A stretch of DNA of 51,984 nt from Erysipelotrichales bacterium (GTDB lineage Bacteria; Bacillota_I; Bacilli_A; RF39; UBA660). Both the position numbers and the translations under genes were made by a program. Shown here piece by piece: positions 7,153 through 51,710 of the stretch. Every line of letters begins with the position of its first letter. Within the stretch, counting starts at the first letter, position 1. The notes under the pieces are model-generated. The model was not told the DNA's origin and did not search any database. It was given only the letters and a program-made list of their open reading frames with translations. Where the stretch lies: assembly GCA_022508565.1 (NCBI GenBank), contig JAFLUY010000009.1, positions 1-51,984 on the forward strand, written 5' to 3'.

Positions 7153-7584
7153 ATGAAAACTTTAGTAGAATTCATTGCTGAAAAATGTTGCAAAAAATGC
7201 AAGATTAAGAATTTTGATAAAGATATTCTTAAGAAGAAAAACTTCAAACATCTTAAATTCAAAGAATTAAAGAAATTATTGAATGAATCTTATGATGAAG
7301 ATGATGAAAATGATTATGAAGAATATTACGAAACATTCGAAGATGATGTTGCAACATTCTTATATAATTGGGTGAATAACGGAGACGAAGAAGAAACGCA
7401 AGAAATGCTTGAATATTTCATTAAAAGTAGAGGAGAAGGAGAACTCTGGGATATGATTTGTGAAGATTTATCTAACGATCCTTGGGGAGGATATCAAGGA
7501 GAATATGATGAATGGGAATTAGCTGATGATGATTTCTGTAAAGAGATAGCCGTTATGGTAGCTAAAAAGATTTTAGAAGAATAA
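7153..7584 (+). CDS. Acidic protein with capsid-targeting-like N-terminus
   Basis: 143 aa, function unknown. It begins MKTLVEFIAEK, close to the T4 internal-protein tag MKTYQEFIAEA, and contains the (I/L)-x-E signature twice (FIAE at 10, LLNE at about 44). After a basic, Cys-containing segment (KCCKKCK) it becomes strongly acidic (DEDDENDYEEYYE) and ends in helices with paired Trp residues. It is isolated on the plus strand and has its own terminator. The likely role is a packaged internal or injected protein (inference). Confidence 0.7.
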   Translation: MKTLVEFIAEKCCKKCKIKNFDKDILKKKNFKHLKFKELKKLLNESYDEDDENDYEEYYETFEDDVATFLYNWVNNGDEEETQEMLEYFIKSRGEGELWDMICEDLSNDPWGGYQGEYDEWELADDDFCKEIAVMVAKKILEE

Positions 7585-7607
7585 TTAATTTTAATAATAT
7601 ATGAAAA

Positions 7608-7634
7608 TGGCTAGGTTTTTCCTAGCTATTTTTT
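7608..7634 (+). terminator. Rho-independent terminator
   Basis: GGCTAGG, loop TTTTT, CCTAGCT, then a run of T follows the plus-strand gene ending at 7584. Confidence 0.75.
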
Positions 7635-7636
7635 AT

Positions 7637-7699
7637 TTACACAGATTGAGACTTCTCGAGATTCGCTATGCGATGCTCGAGATATATCAAACCGAGTTT
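7637..7699 (-). pseudogene. Residual second copy of the DNA polymerase fragment's 3' end
   Basis: Read on the minus strand this gives KLGLIYLEHRIANLEKSQSV-stop (21 codons with stop). The real polymerase ORF just upstream ends SYLEHRIDDLEKSS-stop. The shared YLEHRI..LEKS is written with different codons (CTC GAG CAT CGC ATA against TTG GAA CAT CGT ATT). No start codon precedes it. It contains its own CTCGAG...CTCGAG inverted repeat. Confidence 0.75.
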
Positions 7700-7705
7700 G
7701 AGAGT

Positions 7706-7754
7706 TTTGGAACATTATGATGACTTTTCAAGATCATCAATACGATGTTCCAAA
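7706..7754 (-). other. Hairpin overlapping the polymerase stop codon
   Basis: TTTGGAACAT (7706-7715) pairs with ATGTTCCAAA (7745-7754), and TGATGA/TCATCA form a second stem inside. The structure covers the last 13 codons and the stop. There is no T-run, so it is not a standard terminator; it may shape mRNA ends or recombination. Confidence 0.6.
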
Positions 7755-9271
7755 TATGACACCAACTCGGCATCAATACTCCATCCAAGATATTTATATT
7801 CTCCTCGGCGTTTCTTTCGGTCGATTTGAAATTTTTTAAATGCATAATCTCGATCATTTCTATATACATTACCCATAACTGTCACAAAATAGTTTGGATC
7901 TTTACGATATTTTTCGAGCTCCTCTTCTGTCCAAGGAATTTTAACTCTTCTTCCAAGACTATCAGGTTCAGATAAATTATACATAATATTTTCCATCGAT
8001 AAGTTACAAGTAATGATCTGACTTGGATAAAGTGAAGCAAAATCATCACAAATTGTATATTCATATCGTCCAGGAACACATCCACAAAATGCTCCTTCAT
8101 AAGGTACTTTTATTCTATCGCAATGATCCCAATCATATACAACATGCTTACCTTCATTATAAAATACTTCAAACATACCGGCCGTTGTCAATGCTACTTG
8201 TCCCATTGCTTTCATAACAGGTACTAAAGTTAATGATGAATTATTCAATACCGGTTCCATACAACGGAGTCTATAATGAATTAATTGTACGATTAGACTA
8301 TCGACAGCATTGTAATAATAGTACCATTCAGGATCCCTTTCCCAAAGTTGTTGAATAGTACCTTCATATTTAATTTTATGAGCTTTAACAGCATGACTAC
8401 CTACCCAATCCAAAGAATAACTTTCATAAGGCCTAAGAACAAAATCATATTTCTTAACAAGTTCCATATAATCAAATTCTGCTTGATGTACTGGACCATA
8501 AGTATATCCTTCAGTACCATCCATCTCTGACCATTTGATTTTCTGAACTTCTTTTGTTGGGCTTGCTGCTTTAATCATATTCATTGCTTGTTTTTCTCCA
8601 AACAATTTTTTAATACGATTTACTAGATATTGTCTATCGAATCGGTAGTTATTCCAACCTACAATTAATGCAATATTAGGCAAAATCTTTAGAAACCAAT
8701 GTTCAAGCAATTTTTCTTCGGTTTCGAAATATTGATAAAAGAATTTTGGTTCAAATTTCTGATGATTTTTAAGATTTCTCGCATAATCATTTTTCTCAAT
8801 CCATTCGAAATATCTTGTTTTCATCAATTCAATTTGCTCTTTATCGAGATTATGCCTACCTAAAACCATACAAGATAGATCAGGACCACAAAGTGATATT
8901 GAAGTTACTGGCATAGGAGCAATAGCGGGATCTGGAAAGAACGCTCCAGATTCTGTCTCGATGTCATAACAGTATAATTTTGAAGGATATGCAGTTTTCA
9001 GATCTTTATACATTTCAGCTGTCTCTGGATCATCCTTCATCTTATACATCAATTCTAAAAGATCGAATTCATTTGGTTTATATTGGGTTGAATCTTTAAA
9101 AATTCTATTTGCTTTCTTCCCGTCCCATGTATCATATTTTCCATTATCATCAAACTCGTATGTGGAAATATGGTGCAAGTATTTTTTCCATATTTTTCTT
9201 TTATTATTCTTATCCAAATAAGATATTGTCAATCGCTGATCAAATTTATTCCAAGTTCTATCTATTATCAT
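7715..9271 (-). CDS. Family B DNA polymerase, N-terminal half (exonuclease plus motif A)
   Basis: 518 aa. The 3'-5' exonuclease motifs are present: YCYDIETE (Exo I), VGWNNYRFDRQYL (Exo II) and YYYNAVDSLIVQL (Exo III). Polymerase motif A is DDFASLYPSQI (about residue 410). The reading frame stops about 100 residues later, after LEKSS, so motif B (KxxxNSxYG) and motif C (DTD) are missing; T4 gp43 is 898 aa. Nothing in this window supplies them. Either the polymerase is split, with the other half elsewhere (known in some T4 relatives), or it is truncated. The 3' end carries a hairpin and a second recoded tail. Confidence 0.9.
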   Translation of the reverse strand: MIIDRTWNKFDQRLTISYLDKNNKRKIWKKYLHHISTYEFDDNGKYDTWDGKKANRIFKDSTQYKPNEFDLLELMYKMKDDPETAEMYKDLKTAYPSKLYCYDIETESGAFFPDPAIAPMPVTSISLCGPDLSCMVLGRHNLDKEQIELMKTRYFEWIEKNDYARNLKNHQKFEPKFFYQYFETEEKLLEHWFLKILPNIALIVGWNNYRFDRQYLVNRIKKLFGEKQAMNMIKAASPTKEVQKIKWSEMDGTEGYTYGPVHQAEFDYMELVKKYDFVLRPYESYSLDWVGSHAVKAHKIKYEGTIQQLWERDPEWYYYYNAVDSLIVQLIHYRLRCMEPVLNNSSLTLVPVMKAMGQVALTTAGMFEVFYNEGKHVVYDWDHCDRIKVPYEGAFCGCVPGRYEYTICDDFASLYPSQIITCNLSMENIMYNLSEPDSLGRRVKIPWTEEELEKYRKDPNYFVTVMGNVYRNDRDYAFKKFQIDRKKRRGEYKYLGWSIDAELVSYLEHRIDDLEKSS

Positions 9272-9333
9272 TTATCAAAATATTTTTTTAAAATTATTGT
9301 TTAATATAGTTATTTATTAACTAACGTTTCAAT

Positions 9334-9657
9334 CTATATTAATCTCTTACCATATTTATTTTCTAGTTTTTTTAATGTCTCATTTGGATCTTCTTTCATG
9401 ATATCTTCACAATCTATATAAATAACATCTAAAACTTGTTTATCTGCTTCTGTATATTGATTATTGGCAATTTCATCACAAAAATTTTCAATAATAATCT
9501 TACCAAAAGTTTTATGTGGATATTTATCTATATGATAATCCATGATTCCATAAAATAAATTTGTGGCCATCGGATGATTGATAACTTTTTCAATCAATCG
9601 ATTTGACTTAATATATTTCAATAGTTTTTTATTTCTTTGTTTAAATTTAATTCCCAT
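9334..9657 (-). CDS. Hypothetical protein, 107 aa
   Basis: Not recognised. Basic N-terminus (MGIKFKQRNKKLLKYIKSNR) followed by predicted helices. It sits between the dehydroquinase gene, 17 bases upstream, and the polymerase, in the same direction, so it is likely cotranscribed. Inverted TTAATATAG/CTATATTAA surrounds the stop region. Confidence 0.7.
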   Translation of the reverse strand: MGIKFKQRNKKLLKYIKSNRLIEKVINHPMATNLFYGIMDYHIDKYPHKTFGKIIIENFCDEIANNQYTEADKQVLDVIYIDCEDIMKEDPNETLKKLENKYGKRLI

Positions 9658-9674
9658 ATCTAAGTAATATCTAA

Positions 9675-10112
9675 TTAATATTTATTTAAAATTGCTTGAA
9701 TTCCTAAATTATATCCATCTAATCCTAATCCAATTATTGATCCAGAGCATACTGGACTAAGTAAAGACTCTTTCCTAAAATTCTCACGATTTACTATATT
9801 TGATATATGTACTTCTATAATAGGAATATGTGAAATCTCAATAGCATCACGAATAGTTATAGAAGTATGCGTATATCCTCCAGCATTAATTACTATCCCA
9901 TAGTAATTTAAACTATCAAATTCTACTTCTTGAATTTTATCTATGAGATCTCCTTCATGATTACTTTGATAATATTCTAATTTATTATATTGTTTTTTAA
10001 GTTTATTAAAATATTCTTGAAAAGTTTGTTCATTATGTGAATAAATTAAGGGATCTCGATATTTCAATAAATTTAAATTAGGTCCATTAATAATTAATAT
10101 TTTCTTTTCCAT
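9675..10112 (-). CDS. aroQ: 3-dehydroquinate dehydratase, type II
   Basis: 145 aa, full length for the family. All signature blocks are present: INGPNLNLLKYRDPLIY (active-site Arg and Tyr), QSNHEGDLIDKIQ, VINAGGYTHTSITIRDAI, EVHISNIVNRENFRKES (catalytic His about residue 102) and the C-terminal CSGSIIGLGLDGY. The enzyme interconverts 3-dehydroquinate and 3-dehydroshikimate in aromatic amino acid synthesis or quinate breakdown. No other pathway gene is in the window. In a phage it is an auxiliary metabolic gene of unclear purpose; all expected catalytic residues look intact. Confidence 0.93.
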   Translation of the reverse strand: MEKKILIINGPNLNLLKYRDPLIYSHNEQTFQEYFNKLKKQYNKLEYYQSNHEGDLIDKIQEVEFDSLNYYGIVINAGGYTHTSITIRDAIEISHIPIIEVHISNIVNRENFRKESLLSPVCSGSIIGLGLDGYNLGIQAILNKY

Positions 10113-10128
10113 ATTTTTTTAATTTATT

Positions 10129-10191
10129 TTATAGACTAATAAGAATTCGTTGGAGATGAGCAACTTCTTCATCAGTAGAATTAGTATATTG
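10129..10191 (-). pseudogene. Residual second copy of the MoxR ATPase 3' end
   Basis: Downstream of the ATPase stop the minus strand reads QYTNSTDEEVAHLQRILISL-stop. The real end is KYSEHTGEEIAYIQRLLISL-stop. The amino-acid changes are conservative and most codons differ, so this is the tail of a diverged homologue, not a fresh duplication. Confidence 0.8.
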
Positions 10192-10218
10192 AAATGAAAA
10201 TCATTTCAGTCAGCGAGA

Positions 10219-11442: not shown

Positions 11443-11535
11443 ACTATTTGATTTTTTATTGTTTAATCCAAAAAGTACTTTGAGTTTGACTCACATAAAT
11501 TTTTGGATTCATACTATTTGATTTTTTATTGTTTA
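11425..11535 (-). repeat. 41-bp direct repeat duplicating the MoxR gene start
   Basis: 11425-11465 and 11495-11535 are identical over 41 bases and 70 bases apart. Each copy holds the leader and the start codons for MNPKIY. The outer copy, nearer the promoter element at 11555-11567, runs into a stop after 18 codons (MNPKIYVSQTQSTFWIKQ); the inner copy is the functional start. The outer copy therefore looks like the original 5' end. Confidence 0.9.
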
Positions 11536-11554
11536 GATTTTTATTGACACAATT

Positions 11555-11567
11555 AAAAAATAGATTT
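11555..11567 (-). promoter_or_regulatory. TCTATTTTTT promoter-like element for the MoxR gene
   Basis: Minus-strand AAATCTATTTTTT lies about 43 bases from the outer, residual start codon, which matches the spacing at other genes, and about 113 bases from the functional one. Confidence 0.5.
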
Positions 11568-11671
11568 TTTTAAATATTTTTCATTGAATCTTGATGAAAA
11601 GTTTAACTCATGATTCATATTTTTACATATAATATATATTGAATATTGCAATAAGCAATGAAATTATAATA

Positions 11672-13429
11672 ATGATTTGGGGAAACTTAACATCTGTTTT
11701 AGAAGGAGATGAAACTCCATATAGCCAGTTAAAAGAAAATATAAAAATTTTTGAAGATTATAAACCGTCATCAGGAATATCTAAATTGTTGAAACGATTA
11801 TCTAGATACGGAATGAACTATGATGATCAGGTTTATAAAAATATGATGGCAATTCCTGCTGATAAATTATATCAAAACAAGCAGGATGTTATGATGGTCA
11901 ATAACATGTATTCCGGTTTGATGAATAATTGGAAAATCAAACCTGAAGAAGATAAATCATTCGCAGAAAAAACATTAGACCAAAAAAGAGATATTCTCCG
12001 AAAGATGGCGATGCAGCCAGAATTGGAAGATATATTGGATATCATGGCGAATGAATGTATTGTTTATGATGACGAATCTGTATATATTGGACAACCATAT
12101 ATAGATAGTGCAGTCTTACAAACTTTACAAGAAAAATCATCTAAAGCATTTTCTAATTGTCTTGATACAGGATTTTATAAATTATATATGTTATTAGATT
12201 GGAAAGATAATGCTTGGGACACTTTTAAAAGATGGTTAGTAGATGGAGTATTAGCGTATGAAATAGTATATGATAATAATGAAAACCCTCACACGATTAT
12301 TGGCATTATTGAATTAGATCCTGGTACATTGACTAAAAAATTTGACAAAGGAATGATTTATTGGATCCAATTTGAAGGAGTACTTGGACAAGAAAGAAAA
12401 TTATTAGATTCTCAAATTATTTATATTAAGTATGAGGATAGCGGAGTTAGTGCTAGACAATCATATCTTGAGCGTTTAATTCGTCCTTTTAATATATATA
12501 GAATTATCGAACAAGCACAAGTTATTTGGACGGTAACTCAATCTTCATTTAAAACAATGTTTACTATTCCTGTAGCAGGAATGAATAGAGCAAAAGGTAC
12601 ACAAACTCTTCAATCAGCAATGGCTAGATATCGCGAGGATATTAGTTTCAATAATGAAACTGGAGAGTTGAAAGTGAATGGTAGGACAAACCTTCCTTTC
12701 AATAAAGAGTATTGGATGCCAGAAAATGAAAATGGTAAACCTGAAATTGAAACTTTAGTAGATCAAGGACCTTCTTTAAATGATAGTGATCAGCTTAGAT
12801 ATTTCTTATCAAAATTATATAAAATGTCTAAAATTCCTGAATCTCGATTCGATAAAGAAGCTCAATCAACTTGGTTTGGGACAGATCCTTCGCAATCTTT
12901 AAGAGATGAAATCAACTTCGGAAGATTTGTAGATCGAATGAGAAACGCTTTTATCGAAATATTGCTTAAACCTCTTCGTATATATCTGGCGTTGAATCTT
13001 CCCGGAATTAAAAATGATAAAAGACTTTTAAATGCTGTTGGTTTTAGATTTAATTCCTATAATCAATTTGAAGAGATGATGAATATTGAAGTATCGACGA
13101 AAAGAATTGAATATATTAGTTTATTAAAAGATACTTTTATGACTACTGATAGTGAAGGAAATGAGACTCCATATTTTTCATTGAAATTCTTAATTCAACG
13201 TTTCTTGGGATTTTCTGATGCAGATCTTGAATTGAATGAAAAATGTAAACTTGAAGATGCTGTACAGAAAAAACAATTAGAAAACGATGAAGAAGAGGAA
13301 ACCGAAGATATGGATAACGAAGAAAGTGGTGAAAGCGATGAAGGATCTGAAGGAGATGAAGGAGATTCTTTAGATGACGAAATGCTCGGAGACGTTCAAC
13401 CAGAATCTTCTGAGACAACACAAGCATAA
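11672..13429 (+). CDS. Portal protein (T4 gp20-like)
   Basis: 585 aa. The central part matches T4-type portals: ILLDSQIIYIKYEDSG region, IRPFNIYRIIEQAQVIWTVT, AMARYREDISFNNETGE, then EYWMPENENGKPEIETLVDQG and FLSKLYKMSKIPESRFDKEA. Twelve such subunits form the DNA entry ring and anchor terminase. The C-terminus is an acidic Glu/Asp/Ser/Gly tail. I use the ATG at 11672; the in-frame TTG at 11639 would add 11 residues without leader support. TTTTTACATATA at 11617-11628 may be its promoter. It opens a plus-strand virion block. Confidence 0.92.
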   Translation: MIWGNLTSVLEGDETPYSQLKENIKIFEDYKPSSGISKLLKRLSRYGMNYDDQVYKNMMAIPADKLYQNKQDVMMVNNMYSGLMNNWKIKPEEDKSFAEKTLDQKRDILRKMAMQPELEDILDIMANECIVYDDESVYIGQPYIDSAVLQTLQEKSSKAFSNCLDTGFYKLYMLLDWKDNAWDTFKRWLVDGVLAYEIVYDNNENPHTIIGIIELDPGTLTKKFDKGMIYWIQFEGVLGQERKLLDSQIIYIKYEDSGVSARQSYLERLIRPFNIYRIIEQAQVIWTVTQSSFKTMFTIPVAGMNRAKGTQTLQSAMARYREDISFNNETGELKVNGRTNLPFNKEYWMPENENGKPEIETLVDQGPSLNDSDQLRYFLSKLYKMSKIPESRFDKEAQSTWFGTDPSQSLRDEINFGRFVDRMRNAFIEILLKPLRIYLALNLPGIKNDKRLLNAVGFRFNSYNQFEEMMNIEVSTKRIEYISLLKDTFMTTDSEGNETPYFSLKFLIQRFLGFSDADLELNEKCKLEDAVQKKQLENDEEEETEDMDNEESGESDEGSEGDEGDSLDDEMLGDVQPESSETTQA

Positions 13430-15101: not shown

Positions 15102-15746
15102 ATGGCTAAGAAAAAAGATAAAGAATTTGAATATGAATATAATCCTGTAAAAGAGCAAATTGGCGGTAAAGGGGCTGAAAAGGTTATTTGGACTACGAAA
15201 TCCTTAAATATGGCTGTAGAAGCGATATCGCAAGGTTTACCTCTTAAAGCTAATCCGTTTTGTGGAAAAAACACAAAACTTCTTAGACCTGACTTGGTTT
15301 ATAAAAGAACACAAGAAGAAATTGAAGATTATATCAAATGTAAAGAAGATCCTGTATATTTTGGAGAAAAATGTTATTTGATGACTCCTGAGGGATTGCA
15401 ACAATGTAAACTTAGAGGATATCAAAAGAAATATTTAGAGCATTTAAAAAATAATAGATTCACATGCTATCTCGCGGCACGCCAAGTTGGTAAGACTCTT
15501 AATATGTCGTCAATAGTTAATATTTTTTTAAATAAAAATTCTAAATATATTGACAAGTTGATAAGAAAATATTTTTTTTATATAAAAGATAATTTAATTT
15601 ATATACAATTACCATTATTTGAATTATGGAATATTTATGGTATTCATAATAAATATTGGAAAATTAAATATCAGTTATATAAAATAATTTATAAATTAAA
15701 AACATATGAAAAAAATTCCAAAAGAAGAAAATCCAAGAAAAATTGA
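15102..15746 (+). CDS. Terminase large subunit, N-terminal part fused to an intein N-terminal segment
   Basis: 214 aa. Residues 1-132 are the start of a T4 gp17-like packaging ATPase: Q-motif-like region and RGYQKKYLEHLKNNR, then Walker A AARQVGKT (residues 125-132). T4 continues after GKT with TVVAIFLAHF; here LNMSSIVNIFLNKN follows and the frame runs 82 codons of Ile/Lys/Tyr-rich sequence to a TAA at 15744-15746. The rest of the ATPase is in a separate frame from 16319. The extra 82 residues are read as the N-terminal piece of a split intein. No canonical Cys or Ser directly follows GKT; the nearest candidates are the two Ser in NMSS. Confidence 0.85.
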   Translation: MAKKKDKEFEYEYNPVKEQIGGKGAEKVIWTTKSLNMAVEAISQGLPLKANPFCGKNTKLLRPDLVYKRTQEEIEDYIKCKEDPVYFGEKCYLMTPEGLQQCKLRGYQKKYLEHLKNNRFTCYLAARQVGKTLNMSSIVNIFLNKNSKYIDKLIRKYFFYIKDNLIYIQLPLFELWNIYGIHNKYWKIKYQLYKIIYKLKTYEKNSKRRKSKKN

Positions 15747-16318
15747 ATTTTATATTAAAAATTATCCAGAATTATCAAAAGAAGAACAAGAAAAAATGTG
15801 CTGAAAATATGGATATCAGATATTATATATTTGGGAATCTGAATATAAAGAAAATAAAGATGCAACAATTAAAAAGTGTATTGATTTTTTGACTAATGAT
15901 AAAGAGATGGATCATAAATAAATTATATAAATTAATTTCGTTTCTAGATTGTAAAGAATTTGATAAACAGAAAGATCAAATTGTTTATGATATAAATCTT
16001 CCTGAAGGTATTGAAATTGAAACCGATACAGGATATAAACCGATAACTAATTTTATATACAAAAGACCTTTCAAAAATTGGATAATAAAATTAGAAAATG
16101 GTTATGAATTAGAAGGCGCAGATAAACATATATTATTTAGAGAGGATTATTCTGAAGTTTTTATTGATGAATTAAAAATTGGAGACAAAATATTAACTAA
16201 TAAAGGCCCTTCTAAAGTTATTCATATTGAAAATACTAGAATAAAACTTTGTATGGGAGATATATCAGTAGAGGATGAAAATCATAGATTTTATTCTAAT
16301 GGTATACTTTCGCATAAT
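15498..16318 (+). mobile_element. Split intein (with decayed endonuclease) interrupting terminase at Walker A
   Basis: The insert lies between the codons for GKT and SVVTGIYTLW, the catalytic P-loop, a favoured intein site. The downstream part shows intein blocks: strand pair TDTGYKPITNFIYKRPF, block B-like GADKHILF with its His, DELKIGDKIL, block F GDISVEDENHRFYSNG and block G ILSHN followed by Ser+1. The penultimate His, terminal Asn and +1 Ser of a splicing C-terminus are intact. Three stop codons separate the halves, so any activity must be in trans. The position of the break, before block B, resembles the atypically split terminase inteins reported from lake viromes. Confidence 0.75.
15706..15921 (+). 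pseudogene. Homing-endonuclease remnant with in-frame TGA
   Basis: From the ATG at 15706 the frame reads 32 codons to TGA at 15802-15804, then stays open to TAA at 15919-15921. Reading through, the second half is KYGYQILYIWESEYKENKD followed by ATIKKCIDFL, the pattern at the C-terminus of Vsr-like and related phage homing nucleases. A single TGA-to-TGG change would restore Trp. The nuclease core is absent. It overlaps the end of the first terminase frame and the start of the second. Confidence 0.6.
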
Positions 16319-17788
16319 TCTGTAGTAACTGGGATATATACTCTTTGGAAAACTTTATTTAATATGGATAATAATGCTTTAATACTTTCTAAATCTGGGC
16401 AAGCAGGAGTAGATTTAGTTAAAAAAATTAAAGATATGTATCTATATCTTCCTTATCACCTTAAAGCAGGTACATTAAAATGGAATCAAGGAGGATTTTC
16501 TTTAGATAATAATTCGTCAGTAAAAACAGAATCTTTTAGTCCTACCGCTGGACTCGGCTCGACAATAAATACGCTTGTACTTGATGAGTTCGCATGGTGT
16601 CCTCCGAATGACGTAGAATTATTTTATGAAAACATTATTCCAACAGTAACTACAATGCCGAATTCTAATGTCTGTATAATGTCAACGCAAAACGGATTTA
16701 ATAAATTTTATCAAATCTGGAATGGTGCTATTACAGGAAAAAACATCTATGCTCCTTTTAAAACTGATTGGTTTGAAGTACCTAATTACAATTTAGAAAC
16801 TAGAGAATGGGAACCTCGTACAGAAGAATGGAAAGAAATGATGATTGGCGTACTTGGTAGTGAAGAGGCATTTTATTACCAATATGGTACACAATTTTCA
16901 GCTAGCGATAAATGTTTGATATCGAGAGAAAAACTAGTAGAAATTAGAGAAAATAATATATTATATAAAGAAAGAGGAGATGATTTAGAAAATTTAACGA
17001 TGCTAAATCCGAACAATCTTCACTGGAATCCTGAATATGATTTGTCAAGATTAAAAGAAGAATTTTTTATATTGACCATAGATCTAGCCGAAGGAGGAGG
17101 AAATGATTATACGATATTCCAGATATTTCAGATAACAGATAAAGATAGGTACCAACAAGTTGGGTACTATAGAAGTAATACTACATCATTAGAAGATGCG
17201 GCTGCCGATTTTTGGTTAATGTGTCCACAATTATTTACACAAGACCATTATATTATATCTATTGAATGGAATACGTATGGAGCATTATTTTATCAATATC
17301 TTTTACAATTGAATGAAGAGACTTATCGTCCAGAAATTTTAAATAGATTCAATATTGTTGAAGAATTTGATTTAAGTTGTATTGCTCATTATAAAAAAGG
17401 TACACAAGAAGAAATTGATATTAATGGTAGAAAATCTGGCCGTAAAGAGATTCCTGGAATACGATTTTCCCATTCTAATAAAGTTACTGCTTGTATGTTG
17501 ACAAAAATTCTTATTGAAAAATCTGAATTAGTTTTAAATGATATTGTTACTATAAGTGAATTAGAAAATTTTGAAGATAAAAATGGAAATGGATCATATT
17601 CAGCAAGTTATGGACATGATGATTTAATTTGTGCTTGTTTACAATTACCATTATTAAAAAATACTCCTAGATATAAAAATTTTATAGAAGATTTTGAAGC
17701 ATTAAAAAATATTGGTACTAATAACATACAAGCGATTGATTATTATTCAAGCGTTCCGTCTAATCCGTTTAATCAATTTAATTATTAA
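15896..17788 (+). CDS. Intein C-terminal segment fused to terminase large subunit C-terminal part
   Basis: 630 aa. Residues 1-141 are intein, ending SHN. From Ser142 (16319) the gp17-like sequence resumes: SVVTGIYTLWKTLFN, Walker B with catalytic acid TLVLDEFAW, coupling motif IMSTQNG, then the nuclease domain with LTIDLAEGGGNDYT and, near the end, GHDDLICACL, giving the RNase H-like acidic triad. With the upstream part this makes a complete packaging motor of about 620 residues. The ATG at 15896 overlaps the endonuclease remnant. The extein residues look well preserved, so the protein is probably still made and used. Confidence 0.9.
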   Translation: MIKRWIINKLYKLISFLDCKEFDKQKDQIVYDINLPEGIEIETDTGYKPITNFIYKRPFKNWIIKLENGYELEGADKHILFREDYSEVFIDELKIGDKILTNKGPSKVIHIENTRIKLCMGDISVEDENHRFYSNGILSHNSVVTGIYTLWKTLFNMDNNALILSKSGQAGVDLVKKIKDMYLYLPYHLKAGTLKWNQGGFSLDNNSSVKTESFSPTAGLGSTINTLVLDEFAWCPPNDVELFYENIIPTVTTMPNSNVCIMSTQNGFNKFYQIWNGAITGKNIYAPFKTDWFEVPNYNLETREWEPRTEEWKEMMIGVLGSEEAFYYQYGTQFSASDKCLISREKLVEIRENNILYKERGDDLENLTMLNPNNLHWNPEYDLSRLKEEFFILTIDLAEGGGNDYTIFQIFQITDKDRYQQVGYYRSNTTSLEDAAADFWLMCPQLFTQDHYIISIEWNTYGALFYQYLLQLNEETYRPEILNRFNIVEEFDLSCIAHYKKGTQEEIDINGRKSGRKEIPGIRFSHSNKVTACMLTKILIEKSELVLNDIVTISELENFEDKNGNGSYSASYGHDDLICACLQLPLLKNTPRYKNFIEDFEALKNIGTNNIQAIDYYSSVPSNPFNQFNY

Positions 17789-18400: not shown

Positions 18401-20047
18401 ATGAAAAATTATAAACAAATTACTGAAGATTTTAGTTCTATAAGAGAATCTGTAGAAGAAATCCTAGAAGCAATGGGTAAACCATCAGGAATTAAAAAAT
18501 ATAAAGATTTTGTAAGAAAAGAAACTGTCCATTTTAAATCGGGTGATGTTTATGATTTATCTGATCCTGGATACGATGAAGAATTTAAATATTATGATGG
18601 CTCTGGTAATGGCTATATAAAAGATAAAGAAGGTCATGTTTATGATGTTGTAACTTGGGAAAGACAAGGAGATGCTGGTCGTATCGCTGGAGGTTCTACA
18701 AAATTTGGTGTAATAATTAAAAAGGCAAATGGTAAAGATGATTTTTCAGTAAGCGGATATATTGCAGTATTTTCTAACGGAAGTAATGTAGGATGCGTCG
18801 CTGATATAGAAGATGGATATTATCTTGAAGATTATATTGCTAAATATTATAATTCTTATAGCCATGGAGATAAATTTAAAGAATTAGCGGAAAAAGGAGA
18901 TAAAAATGCTAAATCTTTCGCAAAAGGTAAAGCAGAAAAGAAAGCGCAGAGGGTAGCCGATTTTAAAGAAAGATATATCCCTATACCAAAGACTATTTAT
19001 TGGGAAGTTGACTCTAATGGCTTCAATATTCTTAGATGGAGCCCATCTGATAATAAAGAAGGAGAAGAATATAATGATTTAGCAAAACAGAGAAGCAATA
19101 CATCTTTTTGGGCTAAAGACGAAAACGGACGCGAAAGTAATGAGAAAAATCCAGTTTGGCAAGAGCTTGATAAAAAAATGCAAGATATTAAATCTAAATT
19201 AGATGCCCAATATCTTTCTGTATTTAAACCAATTCTAGAAAATACTATAAAAGAAATTTTTAAGACTTCTAATGTAAATACACTTAGTGGCATTGGAGGA
19301 ACATTTAATGTAAAAAGTAAAAATTCTTGGGATAGTAATTCTCAATATGCTATTGATACAAAAAACAATAAGATTGTTTCTATCGATGTTGAAAAATCGA
19401 AAGTAACAAAAGAAGATCTATCTTATACTGTTGGTGATATAATTTCTATCAATAAGAAAGATGTAAGTCCAGAAATGGAAAAACTTTTCAAAGCGGTTTC
19501 TAAAGCTTGGATGAAGATTAATGGTAAGAAACAAACAGAATATATTGAGAAAAACTGGAGAAGAATACAAAATGCAAGTTCTCCATATTGGAATCGACAG
19601 ATATCTAATAGTGATGCAAAATCAAATGCTAAATATGAATATAAAAAAATGGTAGCTGCACATGATTGGGATAAAAATGATAAACTTCAGTTCTCATTAT
19701 CATTAATTAAAGATTATGTTGAAGGTGATCTTCCTGATTCTGAAGGTCCAGTAAACAAACCATTATCAAATCCTGAACCAGAAAATATTGCTAAGCAAAG
19801 GGGTAAAGATACGAAAATGAGTAAAGGTGCAGAAAAAGTGGCTTATGATAAAATGACTGCATGGCATGAAGGTAAGCGTAAACAAAACTTAGCAAATTGT
19901 TCGGACGCCAAACTCAAAATGAATTATAAAGTTTGTAAAGAACTTGGTTATGAAAAAGAAATGGAATTATTAAAGAAAGAAGCAGAAAGCAGAGGAATAG
20001 ATATAAATGAAAGCTTATCATTAATTGAATTTATGAAAAAAATTTAA
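18401..20047 (+). CDS. Large protein with internal-protein-like N-terminus, function unknown
   Basis: 548 aa, not recognised. It starts MKNYKQITEDFSSIRES and has prohead-protease-like (I/L)-x-E sites at SIRE/S and EILE/A within the first 23 residues, and INES near the C-terminus (GIDINESLSLIEF). The body is hydrophilic with repeated Lys/Asp/Ser and a beta-rich centre (GIGGTFNVKSKNSWDSNS). It stands alone on the plus strand with its own terminator. A packaged head protein is plausible by analogy with the other tagged proteins, though its tag is less typical. Confidence 0.65.
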   Translation: MKNYKQITEDFSSIRESVEEILEAMGKPSGIKKYKDFVRKETVHFKSGDVYDLSDPGYDEEFKYYDGSGNGYIKDKEGHVYDVVTWERQGDAGRIAGGSTKFGVIIKKANGKDDFSVSGYIAVFSNGSNVGCVADIEDGYYLEDYIAKYYNSYSHGDKFKELAEKGDKNAKSFAKGKAEKKAQRVADFKERYIPIPKTIYWEVDSNGFNILRWSPSDNKEGEEYNDLAKQRSNTSFWAKDENGRESNEKNPVWQELDKKMQDIKSKLDAQYLSVFKPILENTIKEIFKTSNVNTLSGIGGTFNVKSKNSWDSNSQYAIDTKNNKIVSIDVEKSKVTKEDLSYTVGDIISINKKDVSPEMEKLFKAVSKAWMKINGKKQTEYIEKNWRRIQNASSPYWNRQISNSDAKSNAKYEYKKMVAAHDWDKNDKLQFSLSLIKDYVEGDLPDSEGPVNKPLSNPEPENIAKQRGKDTKMSKGAEKVAYDKMTAWHEGKRKQNLANCSDAKLKMNYKVCKELGYEKEMELLKKEAESRGIDINESLSLIEFMKKI

Positions 20048-21919: not shown

Positions 21920-22522
21920 TTACTTTAAATCACTTTTCATCGCGAAACAAACTGCAGAATAAATGTTATCTAAATTTGGTTCAGTTACATGTGTCCAACC
22001 GCTAAAATTTTCACTAATTGCTAATAAAAATTTCTTATTTTCAAATCCAAATGTCTTTTTGATTTTTTCTTTATCGACAATATTGTTGTCTGGAATAACA
22101 AGATTAAAAGCTTTACGACTTCTTACATCTAAACCTAACAAACAAAGATTGCTTTCATTTTCATACCAATATGGTATCAATGTCCACTTTTTGTTTTCTT
22201 TCAATTCTTTGTAAGATATTGAATTGCTAAATCCATCAATATCAGCACCATCTATATTGTCATAGAAATCATAATCACCAACATGTTCGGGATCTATACA
22301 TTTTGCCCATTGTTCAAAACATTTTTCACCGGACCATTTTAATGGCTTAAATACATTTATAACATCTTCAGTTATATTTATTGGTGTTTCCCAAGTTTTA
22401 TCTGCATATCTTTTATGATATGTTTGTTTAGCATTATTGTTGTTAAAACCAATTATTTTAACTCCTTGAGGTGGTTCATCATAATTTTGCGCTTCCTTAA
22501 TATATTCAGATAATGACTTCAT
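21920..22522 (-). CDS. Tagged protein of unknown function (MKSLSEYIKEA)
   Basis: 200 aa. The N-terminus MKSLSEYIKEAQ matches the shared tag, with YIKE/A fitting the prohead-protease consensus. The remainder has alternating strands and helices (KWTLIPYWYENESNLCLLGL, KKFLLAISENFSGWTHV), suggesting a compact globular domain. No catalytic motif recognised. Candidate packaged protein. Confidence 0.7.
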   Translation of the reverse strand: MKSLSEYIKEAQNYDEPPQGVKIIGFNNNNAKQTYHKRYADKTWETPINITEDVINVFKPLKWSGEKCFEQWAKCIDPEHVGDYDFYDNIDGADIDGFSNSISYKELKENKKWTLIPYWYENESNLCLLGLDVRSRKAFNLVIPDNNIVDKEKIKKTFGFENKKFLLAISENFSGWTHVTEPNLDNIYSAVCFAMKSDLK

Positions 22523-24944: not shown

Positions 24945-25430
24945 TTAATCTCCTTGCCATTCTTTTCTATCATAAGCATCAGATATTTCTTCTCCTTTTA
25001 TTCTCCAAATATATTTAGGATCTCTAAATTTCTTTAAATCTTTTAAATATTTAGTATCATATAAAACAGAAAATACTAATTTATCTATAACTTTATCTGT
25101 TTCATGATATTCTAATATTATTCCAGTTTCTTTATCAGTGAAATTTTTAGATATAATGTCGTAAATTTCTTTAGATATTTTTTTGTAATCTTTTGTATAG
25201 TCGACTTGTTCTGTCTTATTTTTCATCATAATATCGACTTTCAAACTGTCATCTTCAGGAAGATTTATACGTTTTCTACGTATTATTTCCGAATCTAAAT
25301 GGTCAAATAATGAATAGATACGATCTTCTACATCTTCTCTATCTTTGTAAGAAACATCCATAAAGTTAAAAGCATATACTTTCTCTAACTCATTATTTGA
25401 TTCTTTTATGAATTCTATCAAACTTTTCAT
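24945..25430 (-). CDS. Tagged protein of unknown function (MKSLIEFIKES)
   Basis: 161 aa. It begins MKSLIEFIKESNN, with FIKE/S fitting the prohead-protease site. The body has helices and strands with many charges and no known motif. It ends a three-gene run of tagged proteins (24945-27179), the densest group of these tags in the window. Confidence 0.7.
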   Translation of the reverse strand: MKSLIEFIKESNNELEKVYAFNFMDVSYKDREDVEDRIYSLFDHLDSEIIRRKRINLPEDDSLKVDIMMKNKTEQVDYTKDYKKISKEIYDIISKNFTDKETGIILEYHETDKVIDKLVFSVLYDTKYLKDLKKFRDPKYIWRIKGEEISDAYDRKEWQGD

Positions 25431-25455: not shown

Positions 25456-25965
25456 TTATGCTAGCGCTTCTATTGCTTCTTTTATTAGTGTTTTCTTAAT
25501 ATCATCTATTGAAACTACATATCCAGTTTCTTCGCCGTCTCTATATGGAACTACTGTTCCCTCCCAATTTGAAAATCCCCATCTAAGAATAGTCCATCTT
25601 TTACCAATTTCTCCATAAATTACTACCCAATCATGTTCTTCCTCTTTGCCAACATCATATTTGACAAATTCTAGGTTGTCAATAAATCCTTTTTCATTTT
25701 TGATATCTTTCCATTGAGCAACGATTTTATTATCAATAAGATATTTCTTAAATTCTTTTTTATTATTTATGTCAACAGATTCTAAGCATTTATTTGCAAT
25801 ATCTTCCATATATTTATATCCGCAATCAGACATTGCTTCGACAATTTTTGAGAGATATTTTAATGGTTTTACAGCAACATCTTTACCAAGAATCATTTTT
25901 GAAACTTGATAACCAAATTTATCTTTTAATTTGCCTTCTTGTATAAATTCAACCAAACTTTTCAT
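25456..25965 (-). CDS. Tagged protein of unknown function (MKSLVEFIQEG)
   Basis: 169 aa. Begins MKSLVEFIQEGKLKDKFGY; FIQE/G fits the consensus. A Trp-rich second half (EEEHDWVVIYGEIGKRW, WGFSNWEGTVVPY) suggests a beta-sandwich. The start overlaps the protease gene's stop by four bases, so the two are coupled. Confidence 0.7.
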   Translation of the reverse strand: MKSLVEFIQEGKLKDKFGYQVSKMILGKDVAVKPLKYLSKIVEAMSDCGYKYMEDIANKCLESVDINNKKEFKKYLIDNKIVAQWKDIKNEKGFIDNLEFVKYDVGKEEEHDWVVIYGEIGKRWTILRWGFSNWEGTVVPYRDGEETGYVVSIDDIKKTLIKEAIEALA

Positions 25966-27179
25966 TCTTTATCTATTTCAATTAATTTCTTATCATTTTC
26001 TGCTGATCCTTTGATTTCTTCAGATTCACTATTTTCAATTTCTTCAGCGTAATCTGCGATTTCTTCAAAGTCAACATTATCTAAAGGAGTGCCGCCCTTA
26101 ATACCAATAAAAACACTCATAATCTTATCTATAATTTTTTTAAACCAAGATCCTAGACCTTCATTGATGTTTAATATGTCTTTGCCATCTTTCTTTATGT
26201 GATCTATAACCTTAGGATATTCATTAGCATTCCAGAATCTAGCATACTTATTACATGTTGAGAATTTTCCGTAATCCTTAATTATATTTTTCATTACTTC
26301 CGGATCGCCGACCCAAATATGCTCAACCCCTTTGCTTCTCTTTATCTGTTCAAGAATACTTTCGAGCTTCCATTTAGTACAGCAAACAAAACGTTTATCA
26401 AATTTCATCATTTGAATCTGAGGTAATGTATCGCCAGGCATTTTCCTTTTATCATATTCAATAAGAATTGGATAAATGCCTCCGCCACGACTAACTTCTT
26501 TTTCTAAATCTGCTTTGATATCTTTTTTAATTTCATTAGTATAGTTATCAGTATATGATTTATCTTCTTCATCATGATCTTGGGCATAAGTTTGTAAATC
26601 ATATTCAATACCATATAATTTCTTAGCTAAAGCTCTAACTCTGTTGCATTCTTTTCTAAAATCTGCCCCATGAGCTCTTTTTGGTGCAACTCCGCCAACA
26701 TAATTTTCCAAATGGACCATTTCATGAATTAAGGTATCTTCTTTCTGAAAATCTGAATAATCATATCGGTTATTCATAGAGATAACAGGCTCTAATTCAG
26801 AAATATCATCCACTTCTCTTAGTTTTTTCGCCCATCCAGATACTCTTAAGCTACCTATTTTTTCATCATTACGTTCTACTGTGTCATTGACAAATACTTT
26901 ATATTTACTTCCTACTAATCTGTCTTTTCTATAAAACCATTGTTTTTTGAAACTTTGATAACCCAAAAAAGTATTTTTGCGATCATTTATAATTGTAAAT
27001 TCAATAGTTTTGGGCAATCTATTGTCAAAAAGCTCTTTATTATATTTTTCGTAATGCTCTTTCATCCATTCGATTGTTACCTTGGATTGAGCTTCGAATA
27101 ATTCCCTTTGTTCGATTATATATTTATCTAAAGATAAAGAATTTAAACTATGTTCAATAAATTTTCTAAGCGATTTCAT
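25962..27179 (-). CDS. SprT-like zinc metalloprotease with targeting-like N-terminus
   Basis: 405 aa. After an MKSLRKFIEHS start, residues 35-160 look like a SprT/WLM-type domain: MKEHYEKYNKELFDNRLP, then HEMVH at 152-156 (zinc ligands and catalytic Glu) and HGADFRKECNRV as the downstream His region. SprT-like proteases cut DNA-protein crosslinks or bound proteins. The C-terminal 200 residues are unknown, with an INEG site (about 345) followed by a hydrophobic patch (WFKKIIDKIMSVFIGIKGG) and an acidic tail. Its tag is a weaker match (FIEH, no I-x-E), so packaging is less certain. Confidence 0.8.
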   Translation of the reverse strand: MKSLRKFIEHSLNSLSLDKYIIEQRELFEAQSKVTIEWMKEHYEKYNKELFDNRLPKTIEFTIINDRKNTFLGYQSFKKQWFYRKDRLVGSKYKVFVNDTVERNDEKIGSLRVSGWAKKLREVDDISELEPVISMNNRYDYSDFQKEDTLIHEMVHLENYVGGVAPKRAHGADFRKECNRVRALAKKLYGIEYDLQTYAQDHDEEDKSYTDNYTNEIKKDIKADLEKEVSRGGGIYPILIEYDKRKMPGDTLPQIQMMKFDKRFVCCTKWKLESILEQIKRSKGVEHIWVGDPEVMKNIIKDYGKFSTCNKYARFWNANEYPKVIDHIKKDGKDILNINEGLGSWFKKIIDKIMSVFIGIKGGTPLDNVDFEEIADYAEEIENSESEEIKGSAENDKKLIEIDKE

Positions 27180-42395: not shown

Positions 42396-42396
42396 A

Positions 42397-45492: not shown

Positions 45493-45515
45493 ATTTAAAT
45501 TATTTTAATAATGAA

Positions 45516-46553: not shown

Positions 46554-46555
46554 AA

Positions 46556-48226: not shown

Positions 48227-48347
48227 AAAAATAAATTAAGTTTTTAACATTATTTAACAATATATTATAAATTCAAATTTTTTTTATATATTTATTTATA
48301 AAATGAATAACAAAAACACAAAATAAAAATTTGCAAATTTTAAATTT

Positions 48348-49529
48348 ATGGCAGTAAAACGCAAAACAGAAGATGAACTTTCAATGGAAGAGATCTTAGC
48401 AGGTCAAATTCCAGAAGCCCCAGAAGGTTATGGGCCAGAGTTTTATGGTGATGAAGAAGATACTAGCGATATAGTAGAATCTACTGAACCGGAGAATATA
48501 CAAAATCATGAAAACGCAGAACAAGAAGCTCCGCAAAGAGACATGTCACAACTAGGTATGGTTGGTACAAAATTGACTCATAATTTTAACCAGCATGATC
48601 CTAACGCTAGAGAAAATGATGCTAAGTTGGCAGAAGCAAAAGGTCTTTCGAAATTAGGAGAAAATATCAAGCAAAATGTCGAAGTAAGAGATGGATGGAT
48701 TCATATGGATAAAGCACTTTTAGGAGAACGTGCTGATTTTTATCCTGAATCATGGGAATTTATGATTCGTCCAGCAACAGTTGATGCTATTCGTAACTGG
48801 TCTACAGTAGATGAAGAAAATCCTTTGAATGTAGATGATGTATTTAATGAAATTCTTAAATACTGTCTCGCTATTAAGACTCCAACAGGACCTCAACCAT
48901 GGAGTCAGATTAATTCATGGGATAAATTTTGGTTTGTACTTATGATTAGAGCATATACCTTTAAACAAGGTGAACAAAGTATTTCTTGGAATGAAGATTG
49001 TGTAAATTGTGATGCTCCTGTTGATTTCAAATTAGATTTCGAATCTCTTATGTATGATCTTCCTGATCCTGAAGTGATGAGGTATTATGATAGAGAATCT
49101 AGAACCTGGATGATTGATCCTGCTGAATATGATCTTCCAGATGCTCCGATTACTCTTTATAATCCTACTGTAGAGAAAGATGCTAATATTAAAGCATGGA
49201 TGATCAACAAATATCAAGAAAATCGTAATGCAAAAGTTGAAGGTAATTTTGTTAAATTCCTTACTTGGTTAGCTCCTAAGATCTCTAAAGACCAAGAAAT
49301 TGCTAAACGTCAAATCAAAGAATATCAAATGAAATACAAATCCTGGGATATGGATATGTTTACATTTATGGAAGATGTTGTAAAGAATATTGCAGTTACT
49401 CCAAGTACCAATATTAGTGCAATTTGTCCATCTTGCGGTGAGGAGGTTACCGCTCAAATTCGATTTCCGAATGGAATCAGCGATCTATTTAACGTTCGTC
49501 GTAAATCTAGAAAGTTCGGTAAAAAATGA
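48348..49529 (+). CDS. gp26-like baseplate protein with zinc-finger pairs
   Basis: 393 aa. After an acidic disordered N-terminus, WEFMIRPATVDAIRNWSTVD, WDKFWFVLMIRAYTFKQG and two Cys pairs, CVNCDAPVDF (about 226) and CPSCGEEVTAQIRFP (about 363), resemble the T4 gp26-type baseplate family. The small chaperone-like gene that overlaps its end supports a tail-assembly role. Identification rests on motif pattern and context, not on a search. Confidence 0.65.
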   Translation: MAVKRKTEDELSMEEILAGQIPEAPEGYGPEFYGDEEDTSDIVESTEPENIQNHENAEQEAPQRDMSQLGMVGTKLTHNFNQHDPNARENDAKLAEAKGLSKLGENIKQNVEVRDGWIHMDKALLGERADFYPESWEFMIRPATVDAIRNWSTVDEENPLNVDDVFNEILKYCLAIKTPTGPQPWSQINSWDKFWFVLMIRAYTFKQGEQSISWNEDCVNCDAPVDFKLDFESLMYDLPDPEVMRYYDRESRTWMIDPAEYDLPDAPITLYNPTVEKDANIKAWMINKYQENRNAKVEGNFVKFLTWLAPKISKDQEIAKRQIKEYQMKYKSWDMDMFTFMEDVVKNIAVTPSTNISAICPSCGEEVTAQIRFPNGISDLFNVRRKSRKFGKK

Positions 49530-49764
49530 TCTATACATTTGTAGAGACTATCATATTCAACCATCAGAATTAAGAAGGTTACGATATTATGAATATGAGA
49601 CAATGCTAGAATGTATACAAGAAATTAATAAAAAGGCCGAAGAAGACGAAAAGAAAAGAGAAAAGAATAATGGATTGCCTGAAGGTTATTCGATGCCTAA
49701 GATGCCATCATTTCCTTCAATGTCTGGTACTTCGATGCCAACAATTTCGATTCCTAGTTTATAA
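49471..49764 (+). CDS. Small tail-assembly chaperone-like protein (gp51-type motif)
   Basis: About 97 aa if started at ATG 49471, overlapping the previous gene by 59 bases. The segment YICRDYHIQPSELRRLRYYE has the His...PSE...Leu...Tyr-Glu pattern of small phage tail assembly proteins, followed by a charged helix and a Pro/Met/Ser tail. No ATG lies closer to the conserved part, so the start is uncertain; a non-ATG start near 49528 would give a shorter protein. Confidence 0.6.
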   Translation: MESAIYLTFVVNLESSVKNDLYICRDYHIQPSELRRLRYYEYETMLECIQEINKKAEEDEKKREKNNGLPEGYSMPKMPSFPSMSGTSMPTISIPSL

Positions 49765-49776
49765 TTCTATACTACA

Positions 49777-49803
49777 AAGACCAGTACATTGTACTGGTCT
49801 TTT
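49777..49803. terminator. Bidirectional terminator
   Basis: AAGACCAGTAC, loop ATT, GTACTGGTCTT between converging genes, with A and T runs on either side. Confidence 0.85.
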
Positions 49804-49822
49804 TATTTTATTCTTAAAAATT

Positions 49823-50461
49823 TTAATCAATAATTGTCCAAATTTCAAATATTTTTTTGAAATCTTTATAAGGTAAGACAGAATATCCATTAAATGCCCA
49901 ACTACTACCCCATGAATTTCTAATAATAAATCCATCTTTATTATAACCTACGATTGAAATAGCATGTCCACCTTGATTTTTATCATTATTCTTTTTATTC
50001 CAAAAATCCGTACCATAATTATATACGACCATTCCGCCGACACAAGGACCATTAATTATTAATGCTTCTTTTAAAGATTCTATATCATTTATTTTAGCAT
50101 AATATTCAATTTTTTGATTACCTACATCTGTTTTTACTCCATGATTTCTTAAATAAGAGAAAGCTTCTTTAAAAGTCATTCCTATATCCCCAGGAGTTTT
50201 TCTAGAATTATATATAGCTAGTCTATCTACATGGTTATCTTTTCTTTCAGTCTTATAATCCATGTTTATATTCCAATCTATATGTGCCCCTAAAGAATAA
50301 GTAACACACATATTTGTTTTTCCTTGATTAAGTACAGGAGACATATCATTTTGAAAACTATATTCTTTTGGTAAATCCAATGATTTAGAAACTCCAAAAA
50401 CTATTTCAGATCCATCGATAACAGATGGAGTACATCCTAATCCAAAAATATTATTTTCCAT
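49823..50461 (-). CDS. Papain-family (C1) cysteine protease
   Basis: 212 aa, complete catalytic set: oxyanion Gln46 and Cys52 in SPVLNQGKTNMCVTYS, His166 in GGHAISIVGYN and Asn182 in IIRNSWGSSW. No signal peptide or long inhibitory propeptide, so it is probably active in the cytoplasm or packaged. The residues before Cys are NM and not the usual SCW/GCC. A phage could use it to process virion proteins or degrade host targets. It follows a lipoprotein gene by ten bases. Confidence 0.9.
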   Translation of the reverse strand: MENNIFGLGCTPSVIDGSEIVFGVSKSLDLPKEYSFQNDMSPVLNQGKTNMCVTYSLGAHIDWNINMDYKTERKDNHVDRLAIYNSRKTPGDIGMTFKEAFSYLRNHGVKTDVGNQKIEYYAKINDIESLKEALIINGPCVGGMVVYNYGTDFWNKKNNDKNQGGHAISIVGYNKDGFIIRNSWGSSWAFNGYSVLPYKDFKKIFEIWTIID

Positions 50462-50471
50462 AATTTATTAA

Positions 50472-50819
50472 TTATTTTCTAATTCTTTTTGTTATTTTCA
50501 TTTTTGAAGAATTTATTATTTGTACACGATAAATAACTTCATTTTCTCCTAAACTTTGAATATAAATATATTGTGTAACGTCTTCTCCGGTTTCACCATC
50601 AATAAGTTTTAATTTTCTCCATTTTTTTAAATCTTTATTAATATTATCTGCTTGACAAATTGAATCGAATTGAAGAGTCGAGTAATATCCTTCAAAAGCA
50701 TTCATCATTTGTGAAGAAAATATTTCTGATTTAGGTTCAATCGGAGTAGGATTGCTAGATTTACAACCATAAATAAAAAAGATTAAAATAATAAATAAAA
50801 AACTTTTAATGTATTTCAT
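50472..50819 (-). CDS. Small lipoprotein
   Basis: 115 aa. Signal MKYIKSFLFIILIFFIYGCK with lipobox ending at Cys19; the mature part begins SSNPTPIEPK and is mixed beta, ending in basic residues. In operon with the downstream C1 protease gene. Function unknown; envelope-located exclusion or lysis factor possible. Confidence 0.8.
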   Translation of the reverse strand: MKYIKSFLFIILIFFIYGCKSSNPTPIEPKSEIFSSQMMNAFEGYYSTLQFDSICQADNINKDLKKWRKLKLIDGETGEDVTQYIYIQSLGENEVIYRVQIINSSKMKITKRIRK

Positions 50820-50860
50820 ATTAAATTCATAATCTATATAATTAAAAATTGAGAAAACAC

Positions 50861-50890
50861 AAAAGGAGCAAATTTAATTTGCTCCTTTTT
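50861..50890 (-). terminator. Terminator after the small membrane-protein gene
   Basis: AAAAGGAGCAAAT and ATTTGCTCCTTTT form a 13-bp stem downstream of the stop at 50909. Confidence 0.8.
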
Positions 50891-50908
50891 CATATATATA
50901 ATAATCTC

Positions 50909-51115
50909 TTATTTTAATAAGATGAATGTTATAAGAGAAAGCATTCCAAAAACTGCGCTTCCAAACATTGTATAAACGAACCAAGACGTATCTGCCATTT
51001 TTGAAATAATTGAGTTTTCTGAAACATTTGGTTCAATAAGCCATGAAAAGGTACCAAACATAAAAAATACAGAATAACCAATTATTGCGATAATAAGAAA
51101 AATTGAAGTTGTCAT
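50909..51115 (-). CDS. Small two-helix membrane protein
   Basis: 68 aa. Two hydrophobic segments (IFLIIAIIGYSVFFMFGTF and FVYTMFGSAVFGMLSLITFI) joined by a polar loop. AACAATCAAA and TTTCTATTTT lie upstream. Possibly a holin or an inner-membrane exclusion protein; nothing decides. Confidence 0.7.
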   Translation of the reverse strand: MTTSIFLIIAIIGYSVFFMFGTFSWLIEPNVSENSIISKMADTSWFVYTMFGSAVFGMLSLITFILLK

Positions 51116-51197
51116 ATCTATAAGATTTTGATTGTTATTGAATACATATTTAAAATAGAAACAATATAAAAAATTTCAAAATCTTATATAAAAATTT

Positions 51198-51230
51198 TCA
51201 AATCAAATTTGAAATTTTGATATATTTTTC
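51198..51230 (-). pseudogene. Residual second copy of the 3' end of the tagged gene at 51.3 kb
   Basis: The minus strand reads EKYIKISNLI-stop; the real gene ends DKTYIKISNLI-stop. The last nine codons are identical but for one synonymous base. The hairpin AAATTTCAAAT/ATTTGAAATTT across the stop is present in both. No start codon belongs to this copy. Confidence 0.7.
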
Positions 51231-51254
51231 ACAAAGCGAAAAAAGTTTGAAATT

Positions 51255-51710
51255 TCAAATCAAATTTGAAATTTTAATATACGTCTTATCAGCTTCAGCT
51301 TCTCCATCTTCTTCCTCTATAAGATCCATAATCTCATTTTTAGTCAATTCGCTGAAATAGAAATATTCGGAAGGGCTCTGCTGAGGGCCGGAAATGATAT
51401 GAGCTACAGATACGATATAATCATCTTCAACATACATTCTAAATCCATGCCAAGTCTTATCGATTAGATATTCCCAAGCTTCTTCAGCATCTTCGAAAAC
51501 ATCTTCATAATAGAGACCATCCATATGTTTTCTAGATTCGCTTTTGTACATAACTATAGACTTAGCGCCTGAATCATCAAATATTCTGAAAAATTCATCT
51601 TTCATATCTTCAAATTCAAATTCGGCGTCATCCATATCGTCATTATATTCTCCAATAAGAATTGGGAATTTATGATTAGCTTCAACTATAAATTGCGTAA
51701 GTGATTTCAT
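51255..51710 (-). CDS. Tagged acidic protein of unknown function (MKSLTQFIVEA)
   Basis: 151 aa. Begins MKSLTQFIVEANHKFP, a very good match to the shared tag (FIVE/A). Strongly acidic (YNDDMDDAEFEFEDMKDE), with a mixed fold and ending in DKTYIKISNLI. The stop codon lies inside a perfect hairpin and a second copy of the tail follows at 51198. Candidate packaged protein. Confidence 0.7.
   Translation of the reverse strand: MKSLTQFIVEANHKFPILIGEYNDDMDDAEFEFEDMKDEFFRIFDDSGAKSIVMYKSESRKHMDGLYYEDVFEDAEEAWEYLIDKTWHGFRMYVEDDYIVSVAHIISGPQQSPSEYFYFSELTKNEIMDLIEEEDGEAEADKTYIKISNLI

Follow-up and report, generated by a model that had tools for sequence, protein, structure and literature searches.

The internal proteins IPI, IPII, and IPIII of phage T4 are small and basic and carry the N-terminal sequence MKTYQEFIAE. 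The T4 capsid-targeting and cleavage peptide (CTS) brings foreign proteins into the head, and those proteins reach the host (PMC9026906). T4 propeptides range from 10 to 19 residues in length, and suppressor mutations in IPIII revealed that targeting depends chiefly on residues 4 and 7 and processing chiefly on residues 8 and 10; an aspartate at residue 10 blocks processing while targeting is kept (PMC9026906). IPI inhibits a restriction enzyme; IPIII is required to infect one strain of Escherichia coli and, lacking its CTS, is active from within the cytoplasm (PMC9391042). In the T-even phages, the internal proteins have been described as diverse defense proteins in which the CTS alone is conserved (PMC3012670).

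The phage described here has a similar tag on about 67 open reading frames (ORFs), whereas T4 has three or so. As in IPI, IPII, and IPIII, the tag occupies roughly 10 N-terminal residues conserved at positions 4, 7, 8, and 10, ends in I-x-E followed by a small residue, and precedes unrelated mature parts. Unlike in T4, residue 4 is leucine rather than tyrosine or phenylalanine, and the cargo comprises acidic enzymes with a frequent second cleavage-like site, in contrast to the small and basic cargo of T4. The likeness extends over 10 residues, too few for judging common descent. Sphingomonas phage PAU also presents unrelated proteins with an MKT-type start and L-x-E↓A sites (↓ marks the predicted cut). 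The PAU variant, MKT[LI]xxLYEA, is found on genes beside the portal, protease, and capsid genes, and two of the products are annotated as internal capsid protein; however, its glutamate is at residue 9 (LYEA), a second LNEA follows immediately, and few genes are involved. The phiKZ-like giants (SPN3US and phiKZ) likewise have a large set of proteins that are packaged, processed by a protease, and ejected (PMC5694885, PMC13282480), packaging being a prediction in our case, but they belong to a different virus lineage, and long propeptides (in several cases of about 125 residues) predominate among them, with no single short shared tag. The searchable literature, outside which most subscription journals lie, contained no earlier report of the tag in huge phages.

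The phage and the tagged genes of the window

The stretch of DNA analyzed (the window; 51,984 nucleotides) is contig C37 of a 1.69-Mb bin composed of 37 contigs. Judged from its sequence, this contig comes from a huge T4-like phage, whose group is identified by the portal protein (Table 1). Nine phage-like contigs (C2, C11, C13, C16, C19, C22, C32, C36, and C37), which sum to 371 kb at 27 to 30% GC and on which T4-type head genes are present, were treated as one phage. They presumably belong together because, in the relative L031, homologs of the genes at the end of C36 continue into the capsid gene that begins C22. Relatives of the phage derive from rumen and goat-gut bins.

TABLE 1 Coordinates of the portal protein, the tagged genes, and the promoter-like motif in the window
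Feature	Positions	Strand	Remarks
Portal protein (gp20-like)	11639..13429	+	tblastn to annotated phage portal proteins, 34 to 40% identity to closest
Tagged protein MKTLVEFIAE↓K, 143 aa	7153..7584, tag 7153-7182	+	No Pfam or PHROG match
Tagged protein MKSLSEYIKE↓A, 200 aa	21920..22522, tag 22493-22522	−	No known family; no Pfam or PHROG match
Tagged protein MKSLIEFIKE↓S, 161 aa	24945..25430, tag 25401-25430	−	No family above cutoff
Tagged protein MKSLVEFIQE↓G, 169 aa	25456..25965, tag 25936-25965	−	No family above cutoff
Tagged SprT-like protein MKSLRKFIEH, 405 aa	25962..27179, tag 27150-27179	−	PF10263
Tagged protein MKSLTQFIVE↓A, 151 aa	51255..51710, tag 51681-51710	−	No known family; no Pfam or PHROG match
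Promoter-like motif ATTTTTA...TA	7096..7112	+	Upstream of tagged gene at 7153, weak evidence

The first-pass annotation had described a shared N-terminal tag at six starts of the window, and these are exactly as described, all with ATG and all opening ORFs of 143 to 405 amino acids. Their profile scores are 19.8 to 25.9, compared with −0.1 for the next-best ORF start in the window, a separation that is not fully independent, as the six belong to the 67 training sequences of the profile. A looser form of the tag had also been proposed at position 18401 (MKNYKQITED). This start scores −7.3 and ranks 23rd in the window, and the ORF (18401..20047, +) was dropped as a tagged gene.

The I-x-E cleavage motif is found in five of the six window tags, the exception being the SprT-like protein. 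Cleavage after FIxE had been expected for this protein too, but its tag reads FIEH, so that E10 is missing while the targeting residues are kept, and the nearest [IL]xE sites lie further in, ending at residues 23 (IIE) and 29 (LFE). The protein matches PF10263 (E value of 1.6e-07; 31.6 bits against a curated cutoff of 25.6), and its HExxH motif reads HEMVH in the translation. A single-sequence AlphaFold model was unusable (pLDDT of 35) and gives no confirmation of the fold, and a peptide scan of IMG/VR retrieved no relatives of this protein.

The six tags of the window represent about a tenth of the whole tagged set. A search for more tagged genes had been suggested in the first-pass annotation, and a scoring scan of the nine phage-like contigs retrieved 67 tagged ORFs among 442; this is the count after hand removal of four signal-peptide-like or weak starts caught by the relaxed score. 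On C11, 16 consecutive tagged genes lie within 6.6 kb.

Other genes on these contigs also deserve mention. Four belong to the shikimate pathway (window 9675-10112, −; C36 13995-15023, 42402-43124, and 62024-62812), comprising type II dehydroquinase (4.7e-49), chorismate synthase (7.5e-126), the N-domain of shikimate dehydrogenase (2.5e-20), and DAHP synthase (3.9e-36), and none of them is tagged. The large terminase is encoded in two ORFs (window 15102-15746 and 15896-17788, +), the second of which opens with a weak intein-splicing match (0.0059, under the cutoff) followed by terminase domains; the split is possibly that of a split intein. An untagged ADP-ribosylglycohydrolase (window 5721-6584, −; 1.3e-29) could reverse host ADP-ribosylation. 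DnaJ-, GrpE-, and DnaK-like ORFs, read by eye (C36 60853-61923, C13 7861-8325, and C16 6976-7665), suggest a phage chaperone set, or could be host DNA.

The tag compared with the T4 peptide

The tag consists of about 10 residues at the N terminus, with the consensus MK(S/T)Lxx(F/Y)IxE↓(S/A). In a set of 57 genes picked solely for an MK[ST]L start, residue 7 is phenylalanine or tyrosine in 53, and residue 8 is isoleucine, valine, or leucine in 55. Residue 10 is glutamate in 46 of these 57, whereas about a fifth are without E10; aspartate occupies this position in four and histidine in two, one of the latter being the SprT-like protein. Information in this set reaches background level by residue 13. 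Among the tagged ORFs, 35 of the 67 have serine or alanine at residue 11, against a background of 10.6%. The conserved positions coincide with the functional residues 4, 7, 8, and 10 of T4 IPIII.

All of the sequence-level features of a T4-type CTS that were looked for are present: a short N-terminal peptide conserved at residues 4, 7, 8, and 10, an (I/L)-x-E at its end, unrelated mature proteins behind it, and a gp21-family protease together with a gp23-type capsid protein encoded by the phage. The cargo lacks the basic character of T4 internal proteins, and for this reason, the tag was classed as a CTS-type tag with different cargo.

The strongest single result is a scan of T4 itself, since the profile run on its 3,030 ORF starts was built from the phage tags alone and owes nothing to T4. 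The three best starts are gp61.1 (19.9), ipIII (15.0), and ipII (15.0), and ipI and gp24, another substrate of gp21, rank 7th and 8th. The recovery of ipIII, ipII, ipI, and gp24 within the top 8 of 3,030 has a hypergeometric probability of 1e-10. Alt, which is a packaged T4 protein, ranked 139th and was not recovered. The profile also points to an uncharacterized T4 protein, gp61.1 (MKTFKEFIKED; NC_000866 18966-19130, −), which outscores ipII and ipIII and is a candidate T4 internal protein.

Cargo and predicted processing

The Pfam families identified among the tagged proteins, each in one protein, are EcoRI-type adenine methyltransferase (5.8e-44), NUDIX, HAD hydrolase, nucleoside diphosphate kinase (NDK), RimK ATP-grasp, PGA_cap, phosphoribosyltransferase, and SprT-like. 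In relatives, the tag is also found on a CTP_transf_like protein and a P-loop kinase. The median length of tagged proteins is 141 amino acids, and 1 of 67 exceeds 420 amino acids, compared with 57 of 314 untagged proteins. The basic cargo expected from T4 was looked for by pI and not found: the cargo is acidic, with a median pI of 5.5 that equals that of the untagged genes, and thus, the mature proteins are not of the small, basic type. A sigma-70-like protein on C32 (23911-25185; L017:3911-5185; phrog_351, 8.9e-13) has a tag-like start, MKKLSQLINE↓A, and its orthologs mostly start tag-like as well (MKLFTEIIAES and MKSFTEQILEN); this protein is possibly a packaged sigma factor.

Proteins with this tag could be targeted to the capsid and yet serve chiefly in assembly or as parts of the core, remaining in the head instead of being delivered as effectors, a role for which there is precedent in the effect of T4 IPIII on head form (PMC9026906). 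The cargo nevertheless contains enzymes that act on cellular substrates (methyltransferase, NDK, NUDIX, and RimK) and is poorly conserved between phages, with an ortholog detected for 12 of 66 tagged genes (those of at least 80 amino acids) versus 85 of 312 untagged ones, so retention of most of the set in the head appears unlikely.

A search for a gp21-like protease, which the first-pass annotation had suggested, retrieved a fragment of this family at the end of C36, which breaks off inside the gene (S77, E value of 1.9e-4, below the curated cutoff). The relative L031 encodes a complete gp21-like protease (44.8 bits against a 27-bit cutoff), and in several other relatives, the protease is fused to scaffold-like sequence. 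A PDB sequence search with a relative's protease as the query gave no meaningful match. The assembly also encodes a gp23-type capsid protein (Gp23, over the cutoff), and the phage thus has homologs of gp20, gp21 (fragment), and gp23. In the capsid proteins of seven relatives, the sequence IHE↓A/S is kept within an otherwise variable N-terminal region and matches the I-x-E↓S/A of the tags. It is presumably the real capsid cut, located where the alignment with the T4 prodomain is unreliable.

Sites of the form [IL]xE[ASG] occur at 11.0 per 1,000 residues at positions 11 to 40 of tagged proteins, compared with 2.0 at positions 41 to 140 of the same proteins (P = 1.6e-6) and 3.0 at positions 11 to 40 of untagged proteins (P = 2e-5). 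Second sites are, in this way, 5.5-fold enriched in residues 11 to 40 of tagged proteins. A longer module, ENxxFSKISLxE[SA], which ends in a site of this type, is common to four unrelated proteins of the phage. Two genes ahead of the protease, a 188-amino-acid protein (C36 88779-89345, +) starts with MKSLLENIKEY, a half-tag that has I8 and E10 without F7; it is absent at the same place in L031.

A cargo that is enzymatic and acidic, and not of the basic DNA-binding type of T4, would also suit a tag that sends proteins elsewhere in the infected cell, such as to a phage compartment, the membrane, or a replication center. However, E10 and S/A11 form a protease site like that of the relatives' capsid proteins, which a plain address does not need, and the profile picks T4 head proteins in a phage that has T4-type head genes. 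Another destination in the cell is, on this evidence, improbable.

Distribution of the tag and its implications

The back-translated tag pattern has 37 matches in the assembly, located on C2, C11, C13, C16, C19, C32, C36, and C37, versus 0 for the reversed pattern. In 59 related bacterial genomes, it has five matches, three of which are one repeat. The motif M[KRI].[LIFY]..[FY][IVL].E opens 51 of the 442 ORFs of the phage, compared with 1 match at 7,848 internal methionines in the ORFs of this phage and related ones. The unrelatedness of the mature proteins, stated in the first-pass annotation, is borne out by the 61 BLASTP families into which the 67 tagged proteins fall, and the tags include 66 distinct 30-mers. 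The codons for Ser3 come from both the TCN and AGY boxes, which indicates that the tag is conserved at the protein level. Chance or compositional bias, conceivable in a genome this AT rich (27% GC), is rejected by the ORF starts against internal methionines and by the reversed pattern, as is recent duplication of one gene family by the number of families, the distinct 30-mers, and the two unconnected serine codon boxes, leaving these origins with a negligible probability.

In related phages (18 records), there are 48 matches to the tag pattern versus 0 for the controls. A 410-kb relative from a rumen bin has 61 of 304 ORFs tagged, in sampled parts that favored tag-rich stretches, whereas the more distant relatives LR756500, Lak, and PTm1 presented no strict tag matches. 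Orthologs are tagged in 14 of 27 cases for tagged proteins, compared with 5 of 318 for untagged ones. In the 410-kb relative (ONIZ01000001.1; L075, L076, and L080 to L083), more than 25 ORFs start with MKKLxQFITEKFRLSKDN, and most of these continue as one YNYHPKT family, so that a single tagged family is greatly expanded there.

A promoter-like motif, ATTTTTA(A/C/T)N0-4(A/T)TA, spotted by eye on the same data as those counted, is found upstream of 15 of 29 tagged genes with a leader versus 22 of 118 others. It also precedes 17 of 31 untagged genes of at least 500 amino acids, including that of the portal. In held-out relatives, it is present at 10 of 30 tagged genes versus 50 of 285 genes (P = 0.049), and its frequency at large genes is no different. 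The motif hints, weakly, that tagged genes may be expressed together with virion genes.

The residue match with T4, the T4 scan, the gp21 and gp23 genes, and the I-x-E↓A/S of the relatives give strong support at the sequence level to the T4-type capsid-targeting and cleavage peptide first proposed for this DNA; what did not stand is its member at 18401 and the FIxE of the SprT-like protein. The points against capsid targeting are the acidic cargo, the fifth or so of MK[ST]L genes without E10, the failure to recover Alt, the sub-cutoff protease fragment of the phage itself, and the distant relatives without strict matches. Taken together, the tag very probably acts as the T4 CTS does, as a capsid-targeting propeptide. 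About 65 accessory proteins carry this single peptide of some 10 residues, in which residues 4, 7, and 8 would line one side of a short helix that binds the prohead core. The gp21-family protease would cut after I-x-E, often with a further cut among the 30 residues that follow, and so release the cargo within the maturing head. By analogy with T4, these proteins would then be injected together with the DNA and work, during the first minutes, against defense or on nucleotide pools or transcription.

A more general proposal, which we put forward tentatively and hold to be somewhat short of an even chance, is a delivery system in which a single short, interchangeable tag would bring dozens of enzymes into the head, with trimming at one or two sites and delivery ahead of any phage gene expression. 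Its cargo would include the EcoRI-type adenine methyltransferase, nucleotide enzymes, and the sigma-70-like factor. Takeover and counter-defense would then start at entry. The mechanism is known from T4; the scale, the enzyme cargo, its acidic character, and the frequent second cleavage-like sites are new. With this tag, the T4 signal becomes a readable list, in which any protein that starts with it is predicted to travel in the head, and dozens of family-less genes in huge gut phages gain a testable role. This suggests that some phages may carry tens of premade enzymes instead of a handful.
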